A DNA stretch of 22,192 nt from a virus. Below, piece after piece: positions 16,379-20,300 of this stretch. Under the pieces are notes generated by a model. That model worked only from the letters and a program-made list of their open reading frames with translations. It had not been told where the DNA came from and did not search any database. Position 1 is the stretch's first letter, and every line of letters begins with the position of its first letter. Where the stretch lies: positions 1 through 22,192 of IMG/VR virus record IMGVR_UViG_3300024273_001362; one strand, written 5' to 3'. A program made the position numbers and the translations under genes.

Positions 16379-16805
16379 AATGACTTATACGTTTTATTTT
16401 ATCCCATGAATAGAATTTGAATCCAGATAATACTCCACGTTTATTACGCATAAAACAAACTTTGTCAAGTTTATATGGAGCTACTTTAAACAATGTGTTT
16501 CCAAACCCATCTAAGCACTGTTGCCAAGCAACATGCCAATAGGGATCAATCTTTTTTGAAGTGGGGTCTTGCGGGTCTTCGTAGTCAATCTCCTCTGCAA
16601 GTATTAGATACCGAGGTCCTGTGAAAATATACCGCTTACCATCAATGGGGCAATTTAGATAATAGTCCAGCAACTCAATGAATTCCAACCCATGTGCATG
16701 ATACTGTACAGTTGCCTGATCCAGTAAAGAGAGTTGAGTGTAGACCTTGTCACCAATTGACAGGCTGGACTTTGTAGCTGGTGTCTCGTTGTTTGTGTTT
16801 TCCAT
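16362..16805 (-). CDS. Unknown protein between large terminase and portal
   Basis: The protein is 147 aa and not recognised. It is rich in aromatic residues (many Tyr, Phe and Trp) with a mixed alpha/beta profile; the central part includes YHAHGLEFIELLDYY and a later YWHVAWQQCLDGFGNTLF stretch. There is no signal peptide or membrane segment. It overlaps the large terminase end by 56 bases, an unusually long overlap in another frame, and there is no later ATG until deep in the gene, so the start at 16805 stands. An acetyltransferase-like fold, as in some phage internal proteins of this size, was considered but no motif supports it. It probably belongs to the virion or packaging set by context. 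Confidence 0.65.
   Translation of the reverse strand: MENTNNETPATKSSLSIGDKVYTQLSLLDQATVQYHAHGLEFIELLDYYLNCPIDGKRYIFTGPRYLILAEEIDYEDPQDPTSKKIDPYWHVAWQQCLDGFGNTLFKVAPYKLDKVCFMRNKRGVLSGFKFYSWDKIKRISHYGIKT
16441..16468 (-). promoter_or_regulatory. Possible internal promoter for the portal group
   Basis: TTGACA (16468-16463), a 16-base spacer and TAATAA (16446-16441) lie inside the unknown 147-aa gene, 63 bases before the proline-rich gene start. The geometry equals that of the candidate upstream of the small terminase (TTGACA, 16 bases, TAATAG). It lies within coding sequence, so chance is possible. Confidence 0.3.
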
Positions 16806-18069
16806 ATCCTTGTTTGTCTTCCTTTAGCCCCATTGCTAATGTTCGGAACGCATCCGCTCCGTGAGAGTTAGAGTCATGTACTGGTGTCTTGCGGTATACT
16901 TGCTTCGAACTGTCCCACTCTTTGTGGTAACCCTTTAGGTGTTCAAGACCCAGAGTTGAGCTAGACCGACCAAACCAGCATCTAGGCAAAAGATTTCTCA
17001 CAGCCTCGATGCCGTCCTGTACTGGTAGCTTCCGTACTGGTGTAAACTTTAAGCCCAGAGACCTAGCAACTTCCAGTCGAGACTTACCTGTGCCAAGCTC
17101 GCGAACTTTAATATCATGCGGCGCAAAATGTTTCCCGTAAGTTACACCCTTCTGTACTGCCCATCTCTGCAGCTCCCGTGCGTAGAACGGAAAACCCTCT
17201 CCACTGTTCTCGTAGTAGTAGACAATCCGTATCTCACTCTTAAATTGCTGAAAGAACCATATACTAGTCGAGTCATCCATCCCCAAGTCCCACGCAGTGT
17301 GTACAGGCAACGCCGTATCAGGTGCTAAGTCCTGAAGAACCTGCTTGTTCTTGTACAGTCTGGAGATAATCGGACCGTAGTACGAGCCCTCCACTGGAGT
17401 CTTGAATGAACACATGTACTCCGACTGGAATCGGGCTTCATTGTTTAGCTCGTCCCGCGCTTTCCTCAGATCATCTGGCTTGATAGCCTTGGTGTCCTTA
17501 ACAGATAGGTGGCTGGCGAACCAGCCCTTAGTGGCTTGGGCTTTTAATAGTAGCTTGTAGAAGTGATTCTCTCCACGAGGTGTACCATTAAACAAAGCCC
17601 ACCCACCATTCTCCGCCAAGATCGGATTAATCAACTGCCAAGCTGCTGGGTCAGAAATACTGAACTCAGAAAAAATCACCCCAATGGGATTCGCGCCCAC
17701 CATCTTATCGGGGTCATCAGATCCCAGTAGCTGGATAACGGATCCGTTGGTTAAGTGGAGTCGCATCTCCTGCTCACTCTTCTTCTCCACTAGTGCGGAA
17801 GGAAAGTAGTCAATGAACTTCTTACCCTCGCCAGTCATGCCGTTCCAGATAATACGACGAGCCTGATTGCCGTACGGAAGAACGTACCAGTATGTGCCTA
17901 CGCGCTGCATGGCTTTAATTGCCATGACATTCACGCAAGTAAGATCCTTTCCTGCGCGTCGATGCCAAGCGACACATGCCCGAAGACCACGTTCGGTCTG
18001 GGTCATGTACTTAAGTAGTGGTAGCTGGTAGGGTCTTGGACACCACCCCTGTGCTGGTACAGTAACCAT
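16750..18069 (-). CDS. terL: Terminase large subunit (packaging ATPase and nuclease)
   Basis: The 439-aa protein has every hallmark. Walker A is HRRAGKD (residues 36-42). Walker B is VIFSE (131-135) with catalytic Glu135. The coupling motif NGTPRG is at 161-166. The C-terminal RNase H-like nuclease has acidic residues in AWDLGMDDS (Asp261), FAPHD (Asp319) and HGADAFRTLA (Asp406). It translocates DNA into the prohead through the portal and cuts genome units. The length is at the short end for the family (T7 gp19 is about 586). The ATG at 18069 overlaps the upstream stop (TAATG) and has a strong AGGAGG site nearby, so translation is coupled. The basic C-terminal tail is the usual portal-docking region. 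Confidence 0.96.
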   Translation of the reverse strand: MVTVPAQGWCPRPYQLPLLKYMTQTERGLRACVAWHRRAGKDLTCVNVMAIKAMQRVGTYWYVLPYGNQARRIIWNGMTGEGKKFIDYFPSALVEKKSEQEMRLHLTNGSVIQLLGSDDPDKMVGANPIGVIFSEFSISDPAAWQLINPILAENGGWALFNGTPRGENHFYKLLLKAQATKGWFASHLSVKDTKAIKPDDLRKARDELNNEARFQSEYMCSFKTPVEGSYYGPIISRLYKNKQVLQDLAPDTALPVHTAWDLGMDDSTSIWFFQQFKSEIRIVYYYENSGEGFPFYARELQRWAVQKGVTYGKHFAPHDIKVRELGTGKSRLEVARSLGLKFTPVRKLPVQDGIEAVRNLLPRCWFGRSSSTLGLEHLKGYHKEWDSSKQVYRKTPVHDSNSHGADAFRTLAMGLKEDKQGYGKHKQRDTSYKVQPVNW

Positions 18070-18293
18070 TAATCTTCCTCCTCTTCTTCAAATATCATGT
18101 CGTGCATAAAAGATGGCTGGGTCATGTTCCTAAGGGAATGTATGAACAATGCCTCGCCTACTACTCGGTTAGCGTAGTCGTAGTACAGGTCGCCGTCATC
18201 ATCCAAAACTACGAAAGCAAAATTGGGGAAGTGTTCCCCAAGTATGCCTCGTACGCTATCTAGTATCTCGTCGTGTTGTTTATGTATTGTCAT
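18069..18293 (-). CDS. Small acidic protein between the terminase genes
   Basis: I chose the ATG at 18293, giving 74 aa, over the upstream ATG at 18335, because it leaves a modest 14-base overlap with the previous gene and has a GAGG about 12 bases before it. The protein is not recognised. It opens with a helical segment, has FVVLDDDGDLYYDY (about 27-40), and ends with six or seven consecutive acidic residues. It is coupled to the large terminase by a TAATG overlap, so a small packaging-related accessory is plausible. Confidence 0.6.
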   Translation of the reverse strand: MTIHKQHDEILDSVRGILGEHFPNFAFVVLDDDGDLYYDYANRVVGEALFIHSLRNMTQPSFMHDMIFEEEEED

Positions 18294-18831
18294 CTTCGCT
18301 TTTGTCCTCTTCAGATAGAAATTCGTTATAGGCATCTAGATCCACAATGTCATCGTCTGCCTCCTTCATCAACTGACTCTGGGTCAACTTAGAGAAATCC
18401 ATAGTCACCACCTTCATCTCTCCAGACACTGTAGCCGAAATGTCCACGCTCTTTAGCTTCGGCTGTGTGTAACTGGCTAGCTCCTTCCAAATAGAGATCC
18501 TCTCCTTCAAGGGTACTTCGTCGTCAGATGTAAAGTTCATCAGCTCCTCGATAGGATTGATACCCTTCTCCGCAAACAATGCCAGTAGTGCCTTACGCTG
18601 CTGAGCTGGCGTAGGCGCATTGTTCATCGCATTCAAGAACTGCTGCTTTATATCAAGCTTCTTCTCCACCGAAACAAGATCCTTCTCTGCCTTCTCCATA
18701 TCCTTCTCTGCCTTCATCTTTTTTCGGGAGCAAGTGGTACGCTTGACCTCTCGCTTCTTCTTAGCTTGGGTCGGGGACACTCCGTTCGATGTCTTACGCT
18801 TGTCTGCAAATGGGTCTCGGGTCTTTGGCAT
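18280..18831 (-). CDS. Probable terminase small subunit
   Basis: The 183-aa protein is first in the virion operon, just ahead of the large terminase, the usual place of the DNA-recognition subunit. The N-terminus is strongly basic (KKKREVKRTTCSRKKMKAEK, about residues 24-43), followed by a Lys/Glu heptad-like coiled coil (about 39-65), a helical core, and an acidic C-terminus (EEDKSEDD). Basic N-terminus, coiled-coil oligomerisation and acidic tail fit small terminases, but no family motif is recognised. No Shine-Dalgarno site precedes the ATG at 18831. A start at Met39 (18717) is possible but has no better signal. Confidence 0.6.
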   Translation of the reverse strand: MPKTRDPFADKRKTSNGVSPTQAKKKREVKRTTCSRKKMKAEKDMEKAEKDLVSVEKKLDIKQQFLNAMNNAPTPAQQRKALLALFAEKGINPIEELMNFTSDDEVPLKERISIWKELASYTQPKLKSVDISATVSGEMKVVTMDFSKLTQSQLMKEADDDIVDLDAYNEFLSEEDKSEDDNT

Positions 18832-18840
18832 GTGATGGGA

Positions 18841-18868
18841 CTATTACCCTAGTTTACTTAGTTGTCAA
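18841..18868 (-). promoter_or_regulatory. Candidate promoter of the virion operon
   Basis: TTGACA (18868-18863) and TAATAG (18846-18841) are separated by 16 bases. Transcription would begin near 18834, leaving only a few bases before the first ATG, so the message would be almost leaderless. The -35 box is perfect; the -10 box is moderate. Confidence 0.4.
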
Positions 18869-18920
18869 GCACCTTGTGGATCATGTAACACGTAGCAATG
18901 TTGCGGGGAACTGGGTTCAG

Positions 18921-19171
18921 AAGTACACCTAAGTACAGGTAAAACCACCTATTTTACCACTAGTGGCGACAGTTAACTATATGATATATAAGGTACTTAT
19001 GAGACAGAAGTACAGAAAGTACACTTTCTCTGGGGGGTTACAACAATAAATAAATACCTAGCAAAAAAGTGTATAATGTGTACTTTATTACGTAAGTCGT
19101 TGATACTCCTTATACTTTATAACAGACAGTTGTAAGAAAAAAGTGTACTAGAGGTGTACTTTGATGTACTT
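18921..19171. promoter_or_regulatory. AAGTACA / TGTACTT inverted word array (operator or origin candidate)
   Basis: AAGTACA occurs at 18921, 18931, 19008 and 19017. Its complement TGTACTT occurs at 19079, 19155 and 19165, with the variant TGTACTA at 19144 and a partial GTACTT at 18993. All forward copies lie left and all reverse copies right of an AT-rich core (about 19040-19078). That core has a perfect TATAAT (19072-19077) and one of two AAAAAAGTGTA direct repeats (19063 and 19137). TTATACTTTATAA at 19110-19122 is a separate small inverted repeat. The array sits between divergent transcription units. A repressor/activator operator or a replication initiator site are the obvious readings. 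No promoter with both boxes well spaced is clear for rightward transcription. Confidence 0.6.
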
Positions 19172-19642
19172 TTCCCTGAAATTTCAAAATTGGATGCGCA
19201 GGTTGTTACCCCACTTGTTTTCTGTGGACAATCCCCCCATGCCCCCCCCCTTTGCAATGAAACCAGAAACAATGAGACAACGAACCCTGAGACATGTGCA
19301 ATGCTCCAGCCTACAACCCAGAGACATGAATCACTGCCGCGCTCGCTTCGCTCGCTTGCCCCAACGGATCAGGATCGCTTAGGCTCACCTGATCCTTGGC
19401 TCCGACTCACATTGCCTGATGAAGCTGGCTTCGCACAGCTGTCATCAACCAATGTTCGTGCTGCACCTATGTTCATGCACAACACTGCATCACGTTCCGC
19501 GATTGGGTTGCTCATGCCCATAGGCTCCGCCGTCTTCGCTCCATTGCACCACGAATCGTGCTCCTTGGTCAAAGCACCCATGCACCTACGGATCCCACGG
19601 CTCATGAAGCATACCATCCAGTGCTCCTATGCTACTGAGTAC
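19172..19642. other. Intergenic stretch without a convincing gene
   Basis: Open frames exist here but none looks like a protein; the longest (starting at a GTG at 19154) has unusual Cys/His/Ser content and no ribosome site. The stretch holds C6 and C9 homopolymers (19233-19250) and three GAGACA words (near 19274, 19290 and 19321). It also has a perfect 8-bp inverted repeat GGATCAGG/CCTGATCC (19366-19373 with 19388-19395, 14-base loop) and a GAAGC/GCTTC hairpin (19421-19432). It may be the 5' part of the structured element that follows. Confidence 0.5.
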
Positions 19643-20116
19643 CAGCGTGTTACGCTGTGCTCAAGCACCGTGTTTCGCTCATCCGTCGTTTCTAGGGCTC
19701 TAACCAGCCCGCAACACCAGTGTTTATGCGGCTCTACTATCATCCGTACCATGTAACAATGGCTCTGTATATAGTCACCTTCATCAAGCACTGGTCATGT
19801 GCTGCCACTGGCAGCCCGTTTCGCTCTCCGAGCGAGTCACTTGGAGTGATCCAAGTAACCAAGATCAGCCCCTCAATCGTCGGGGCAAGACTCACACAAC
19901 AAAGATGGAGCAGTCAATATGGTTGCTGTGCGAACCTGCCTACTATCACTCATGTCGCGTTCGCACTGATTTGCCAGCAAATCAGCACAAACCCTAATGG
20001 TGCTAGTGGCAGGAGCTACTGTCTGTTCCCAGCTAAAGCTGGACAGAACAGTGCTCGTCCCCGACATATCTGACAACTCCATTATTCTTGGTTGTGTTGC
20101 ACGACGCAGCAAAACC
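19643..20116 (+). ncRNA. Candidate structured non-coding RNA or structured DNA element
   Basis: Perfect hairpins follow one another: CAGCGT/ACGCTG (19643-19657), GGGCT/AGCCC (19695-19710), AACAC/GTGTT (19713-19724), GCTGCC/GGCAGC (19801-19815) and TCGCTC/GAGCGA (19821-19835). Next come ACTTGGA/TCCAAGT with a GTGA (GNRA) loop (19839-19856) and GCCCC/GGGGC (19868-19886). A three-way junction occupies 19921-19993, a roughly 19-bp bulged hairpin 20013-20056, and a 10-bp hairpin with one mismatch 20090-20116. GTCGGGG (19879-19885) can also pair with CCCCGAC (20059-20065), closing a larger domain. No family is recognised. The strand is inferred from the rightward genes downstream. A packaging or replication element acting as DNA is the alternative. 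Confidence 0.45.
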
Positions 20117-20144
20117 ACTAACTCCCATATGGAGACTTATCAAC

Positions 20145-20300
20145 ATGACACACATATCTACTATCATCGACACGCTGGATCTCGACCTCAACGAAGAGGA
20201 AGACTATCTTGCAAATATCACCGAAGACGATCTGGCTTACGAGTATGAGCTTGACCGCCGCAACGACGAATTCTTCAACAAGGAGGTTCGCAATGGATAA
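20145..20300 (+). CDS. Small acidic protein, first gene of the rightward cluster
   Basis: I chose the ATG at 20145 (51 aa) because a GGAG ten bases upstream (20131-20134) fits a ribosome site; the frame is open further upstream but that part lies in the hairpin region. The protein is strongly acidic (DTLDLDLNEEEDYLANITEDD at about 7-27) and helical, ending in a charged tail. It is not recognised. Very acidic small phage proteins sometimes mimic DNA or inhibit host enzymes, but nothing here shows that. It overlaps the next gene by eight bases, and its 3' end supplies the AGGAGG site of that gene. Confidence 0.6.
   Translation: MTHISTIIDTLDLDLNEEEDYLANITEDDLAYEYELDRRNDEFFNKEVRNG

Follow-up and report, generated by a model that had tools for sequence, protein, structure and literature searches.

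The locus studied here raises a simple question: what occupies the long gap between two sets of viral genes that lie on opposite strands? The window, by which we mean the whole stretch of DNA that was analysed (22,192 nucleotides), is a 22-kb fragment from an uncultured virus. Its minus strand carries the virion and packaging genes (tail, head, head-tail adaptor and the large terminase at 16750-18069), and its plus strand carries small early ORFs starting at about 20145. The minus-strand gene at 18280..18831, which is 57-98% identical in relatives, is likely the small terminase, an identity inferred from its position upstream of the large terminase gene. The first early ORF (20145..20300, plus strand) is 98% identical in the relative L005. 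The gap between the early ORFs and the virion and packaging genes is filled by a structured element on the same strand as the small terminase gene, with the first early ORF diverging from it on the other side. In a preliminary description made from sequence alone, the part of this gap at 19643-20116 had been put forward as a hairpin-dense candidate new structured RNA. The lineage that carries the element is likely podovirus-like, and the large terminases of its closest named phages share at most 47% identity with that of the window. In ct3Et533, the nearest named phage, no such gap exists: the small genes begin right at the point of divergence, opposite the terminase genes, and the element therefore appears specific to the lineage. 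A metagenome bin labelled Sneathiella contains a relative whose terminase is 82% identical, which may be a hint of the host but is weak evidence for it. At the left end of the window there is a tandemly repetitive ORF (2-418) with repeats of AAEGVNATAISTETTRA, probably encoding a tail-fibre protein.

Folding of the 19643-20116 region gave -174.6 kcal/mol on the plus strand (z -6.1) and -199.0 kcal/mol on the minus strand (z -6.5), and on neither strand did any of 100 shuffles reach a value as low, so that the claim of a hairpin-dense structured region held, with z near -6 on both strands and an excess of stems. The preliminary description had counted six stems (6 bp or longer, short loops) where about one was expected, and this held in part: requiring perfect pairing over 6 bp or more and loops of at most 12 nt, we found five stems (19643-19657, 19801-19815, 19821-19835, 19839-19856 and 19966-19985), whereas 500 dinucleotide shuffles averaged 0.92 and never exceeded 4. 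A count of long helices against shuffles (831 nt) did not discriminate between the element and the control. The extent of about 470 bases that had been given also held only in part. Sliding 200-nt windows were unusually stable from about 19300 to 20100, where z on the minus strand fell as low as -7.1, and close to normal over the terminase genes. On the basis of folding z, sliding windows, covariation and the lack of coding, we place a putative large structured noncoding RNA of about 820 nt at 19290..20110 on the minus strand, both ends being approximate. For the full element, 20110-19290, z was -6.0 when folded as the minus strand and -4.2 as the plus strand.

The strand of the RNA was determined from folds of 26 loci in which only Watson-Crick pairs were allowed, after which the lone opposed mismatches were read. 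On the terminase strand these mismatches were G-U in 145 cases and A-C in 20, compared to 22 and 145, respectively, on the reverse strand and 37 and 32 in shuffles. Of seven alignments of single clades or domains, six also gave consensus folds that preferred the terminase strand; the 3' domain scored -156.9 on this strand versus -125.5 on the opposite one and five other clades agreed, while the 5' domain alone was strand-neutral (-132.7 vs -132.6). The G-U/A-C asymmetry together with the preference of the consensus folds therefore shows that the RNA is on the minus strand of the window, which is the terminase strand, and not on the strand that had been emphasised in the preliminary description.

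A referee might ask whether the element is a degraded or overlooked gene. Its ORFs carry stops or frameshifts in relatives and their start codons are not kept, unlike the genes neighbouring the element, which are intact. Substitutions by codon position relative to L005 (27/15/15, 9/17/10, 7/8/9 and 8/8/6) showed no third-position excess, and the ORF at 19369-19617, which stays open for 64 codons in L005, showed no synonymous bias. Protein coding was rejected on these grounds; no coding signal was found in any frame, in agreement with the earlier statement that no convincing gene covers the region. Known families were searched with Rfam cmscan at lenient E-values, using the window, 18830-20160 alone, ten relatives and positions 3800-5180 of the relative L035. 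Nothing in this set came at or near gathering scores or matched GOLLD, ROOL or phage pRNA, which is the outcome that had been expected in the preliminary description. The low-threshold matches (mir-29, MIR821, MIR6274, SNORD10 etc.) were below gathering scores and were set aside as long hairpins or chance. No intron family was among the lenient matches in the window and relatives, and a group I or II intron remnant was rejected. Nucleotide searches of 50,697 phage records returned none resembling the window, L035 or L078 elements, tRNA genes were absent from the window and from 20 relative loci, and no description of this element was found in the papers searched, which do not span all journals.

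Homologues were gathered by large- and small-terminase searches and by DNA patterns. Dozens of contigs of the same group have a gene-free stretch at the matching site, between the early genes and the small terminase. L005 aligns along the entire element (about 88%), L035 and L091 align to the 5' part, L014, L016 and L017 align to the 3' part, and L006 aligns weakly to both. Two alignments were built, A2 for the 5' domain (five sequences, of which one, L006, is poorly aligned) and A1 for the 3' domain (seven sequences). In A2, 87.4% of cells were paired and double changes were present in 37 of 90 pairs (60 cells), compared to 20.1 pairs in shuffles, none of 500 reaching 37, and 7-11 when the partner was slid by 1-3 columns. 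In A1, 96.3% of cells were paired and double changes were present in 17 of 71 pairs, compared to 9.2 in shuffles (0/500 reaching 17) and 0-4 in slid controls. Individual stems illustrate the process: a GCCCC/GGGGC stem in the window is CACUCU/AGAGUG in L006 with its GAUUG loop kept, ACUUGGA/UCCAAGU becomes ACUUGCA/UGCAAGU in L006, and AUAUG/CAUAU becomes AUAGG/CCUAU in L035. Thus, the conserved structure, its compensatory change, its strand, its noncoding nature and its fixed place are all shown, and it is very likely that the element is a functional structured RNA, its transcription being inferred. The candidate put forward in the preliminary description is supported, since the energy, covariation and coding checks all failed to refute it.

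On the minus strand, the 5' end of the element forms a multibranched domain (19900..20091; A2 helices 2-11) in which a long outer helix encloses variable, covarying arms. The outer helix joins CAACCAAGAA with UCUUUGUUG, UGGAGU/GUCA/AUAUG pairing with CAUAU/UGAC/CUCCA, and this architecture is common to L005, L035 and L091 and partial in L006. Within it lies a covarying bulged hairpin with a conserved CUUUAG cap (20018..20052; A2 helix 5), in which both sides have changed in 8 of 13 pairs; among relatives, the stem is replaced and the cap retained. A bulged stem of about 19 bp had been proposed at 20013-20056, and it held as this conserved helix at about 20018-20052. A further hairpin, GUUUGUGCUGAUUUGC / GCAAAUCAGUGCGAAC (19957..19995), has 16 bp including three G-U pairs on the minus strand. 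Two hairpins follow at 19835..19893 (A2 helices 12-14), the first being GCCCC..GAUUG..GGGGC and the second GGUUACUUGGA-UCAC-UCCAAGUGACU, which shows a G-C to C-G change in L006. The loop at 19846-19849 had been read as a GNRA cap, GTGA, and these letters are present on the plus strand; on the RNA strand the loop reads UCAC, and UGAC in L035, and therefore a conserved GNRA loop failed. True GNRA loops (GUAA, GCAA) do occur on the RNA strand, in a neighbouring hairpin of L035 and L091. The 3' domain (19400..19534, minus strand; A1 helices 6-9) consists of two long covarying hairpins, with both-side changes in 13 pairs and 93-100% of cells paired.

Between the variable 5' and 3' arms lies a short conserved core, the motif GCCGUGGGAUCCGUAGGUGCAUGG at 19578..19601 (minus strand), also given as GUAGGUGCAU, which is recognisable in most relatives despite differing flanking arms; its cross-clade consensus is roughly G(U/C)CGUGGRRUCYGUAGGUGCAUG. 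A pattern scan of IMG/VR for the core returned 9 DNA stretches, mostly from contigs already known as members of this phage group. Hits of a scan with AGGTTCGCACAGCAACC (L134-L143) were rejected as unrelated and coding. A covariance model of the 3' hairpins (R1) matched only within the window's own clade, and a model of the 5' hairpins at 19835..19893 (R2) matched, besides the window, only L005, L035, L091 and L006. L035 has the 5' module without the 3' module, and L016 and L017 have the 3' module without the 5' module. The arms have thus been swapped between clades, and the whole RNA is not a single conserved fold. When 23 3' sequences from different clades were folded to one consensus, no structure emerged, because arms of different clades cannot be aligned; folds made per clade succeeded. 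This modular family, with its much larger relatives, was missing from the preliminary description.

The region between the RNA and the small terminase gene holds three features. Downstream of the RNA is a conserved block (19173..19256, minus strand) made of a G or C run, GGGGGA and then ACCTGCG-ATCC. The run comprises about six G or C, the base switching between relatives, and is followed by TGGGGGAAA and then TCCCTACCTGCG-ATCC (in the window, GTAACAACCTGCGCATCC); across clades, the G- or C-run, GGGGGAAA and TCCCUACCUGCG are kept downstream of the core. This block could be the end of the RNA or a cos/pac (packaging) site. Next is an AT-rich stretch (18880..19170) with repeated GTACTT / AAGTACA and ACACTT elements and an inverted repeat conserved in relatives, TATCAACGACTTA..TAAGTCCTTGATA; it may be origin-like, a function that is only inferred. 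In total, 300-400 nt of poorly folding AT-rich DNA separates the element from the small terminase. A promoter-like TTGACA-17-AATAGT (CTTGACA-17-TAATAGT) at 18840..18868 on the minus strand is kept in close relatives and lies almost at the small-terminase start codon. Since this site is conserved just before the gene, the small terminase probably has its own promoter downstream of the RNA, as inferred from promoter-like sequence. No sigma-70-like promoter stands out at the 5' end of the RNA, and no intrinsic terminator stands out at its 3' end.

Large structured phage RNAs of unknown function are already a known kind; GOLLD is phage-borne, often >800 nt and extensively paired, with a conserved 3' and a variable 5' region, and its function is unknown (PMC12286853). 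The element meets the criteria for a large structured phage noncoding RNA, being long, noncoding, covarying and at a conserved phage site. Like GOLLD, it is phage-borne, large and extensively paired; unlike GOLLD, it has no covariance-model match and no nearby tRNAs, and it sits between early genes and the terminase. A homo-oligomeric RNA cage is a further hallmark of GOLLD. As to the GOLLD layout of a conserved 3' and a variable 5' region, relatives have a core and a downstream block in common, and the 3' hairpins of model R1 are confined to the clade of the window; in this group the conserved part is the short core only, and whole arms are exchanged between clades. ROOL is likewise large, phage-borne, structured and of unknown function, but the element has no match to its model and lies outside any tRNA island. 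The element differs from known large phage RNAs in sequence, place and mode of evolution. We propose that it is a large structured noncoding RNA that would start near 20110 and end near 19290 on the minus strand, and in which a short conserved core is set between 5' and 3' arms that vary and pair independently of each other. It would be a free-standing RNA, separate from the terminase mRNA rather than its leader, made in quantity during infection and acting by its shape in the manner of GOLLD or ROOL. This full statement we consider likely, with transcription, separateness and trans action inferred; action in trans rests on analogy, there being no transcript data. That the element represents a new class of large noncoding phage RNA is likewise probable, transcription and function being unproven. 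Very large RNAs are known from phages in only a few cases, and what GOLLD and ROOL do is still open; the element would add an independent class at a fixed, telling site by the terminase genes, and its dozens of natural variants are amenable to direct transcription and probing.

The most serious rival is a cis-acting 5' leader of the terminase/virion operon, controlling, for example, read-through of a terminator or late translation. In its favour, the element lies directly upstream of the small terminase, on the same strand, in every relative seen. Leaders of the HK022 put type are likewise structured RNAs heading a late operon on the same strand. The element is far longer than these, however, and the terminase apparently has its own downstream promoter, the conserved site that lies between the RNA and the gene; the poorly folding AT-rich DNA that intervenes also argues against a leader. 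Known antitermination RNAs are far shorter than ~820 nt. We regard a cis-acting leader as unlikely and prefer the free-standing RNA because of the terminase's own promoter, the exchange of arms with pairing kept, and the retention of a small core.

A role in packaging or replication, either as a pRNA-like part of the motor or as an origin or primer RNA, would have the element work with the nearby AT-rich repeats and the G-run/ACCTGCG block. Its place, between the terminase genes and the AT-rich, origin-like stretch whose inverted repeats are conserved, is consistent with this, and phi29 pRNA is also a phage RNA tied by location to DNA packaging. Against it, the element has no match to the phage pRNA model, there is no evidence of motor binding, and direct evidence for either role is lacking. 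The phi29 pRNA is several times shorter than the window element. A genome-end repeat was not found in the sole record of the lineage tested. This rival, too, is improbable; the pRNA-like alternative raised in the preliminary description is unsupported (no model match, wrong size), with a packaging role remaining possible from the place by the terminase. The other alternative raised there was a structured DNA site. A DNA-level element of this sort, be it a cruciform, a pac/cos site or a site of recombination with RNA-like inverted repeats, can point to the abundance of inverted repeats and the nearby terminase. It is very unlikely, since G-U is accepted and A-C is not on a single strand, for which DNA structure gives no reason, and since covariation spans helices more than 150 nt apart in A2.

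In other clades of the group, the matching site holds a single rod of about 800 nt (L078 3785-4580, L088 748-1538, L144 2760-3605, L083 797-1787 and others). These rods were revealed by folding, with z of -42 for L078, -30 for L088, -28 for L144, -22 for L044 and -19 for L083; a BLAST self-comparison for inverted repeats missed most of them. One of the two arms is antisense to a small early gene (~76-91 codons). An excess of third-position changes (21/34 and 35/56 in two comparisons) marks this gene as protein-coding, one of five comparisons (L144 with L051) being weak. The other arm is an inverted copy of the gene, stop-broken and noncoding, and in L078 this mimic extends to the leader and terminator of the gene as well. 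Across 31 distinct contigs, with genes as little as ~30% identical, 76-93% of gene bases pair with the mimic, compared to 0-16% in the window. The arms of the L078 clade showed double changes in 49 of 342 pairs versus 22.9 in shuffles (maximum 31), and those of the L088 clade in 17 pairs versus 7.3 (maximum 12). Mismatches between gene and mimic were G-U in 88 cases (39 of one orientation, 49 of the other) and A-C in 16, a G-U excess that is expected if the arms are in one RNA, or in two, read terminase-wise. Strand-biased deamination was considered as the source of this excess: near-equal types (39, 49) are not predicted by C-to-T deamination alone, and some mutational contribution to the excess remains possible. 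Recurrent template switching may also keep the arms alike, but alone it would not give the G-U excess. To our knowledge, no other phage has a gene mirrored by a co-evolving noncoding copy under selection for an RNA duplex, and the mimic rods, found in relatives and not in the window, may be a new kind of thing.

These rods suggest a bolder reading, against which we lean by a small margin, that the site demands a long rod-shaped RNA built from any available sequence. In the window's clade the arms would be purely noncoding; in the sister clades the mimic would have kept pace while the gene diverged to ~30-40% amino-acid identity, and selection for an RNA duplex would tie the gene to the RNA mimic that faces it. 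Such an RNA might serve as a rod-shaped particle or decoy, or might prevent antisense transcription from silencing the gene. With the sister rods, it would be possible to test directly if what the phage needs is a long RNA rod as such.

As a separate observation, the 8-mer TACTATCA occurs nine times in the window, always on the plus strand and only from 19735 onward (19735, 19941, 20159, 20466, 20524, 21056, 21260, 21787 and 22077), against 0.83 copies expected and with none of 100 shuffles reaching nine. Only some relatives (L005, L007 and L029) are rich in it, eight others having 0-4 copies, and its spacings are conserved in L005/L090 (13 copies). The 8-mer resembles the single-strand nick consensus of Pseudomonas phage tf, TACT/RTGMC, which is found on one strand only (PMC3517423), and like it is restricted to a single strand; its copies are possible candidates for site-specific nick sites.
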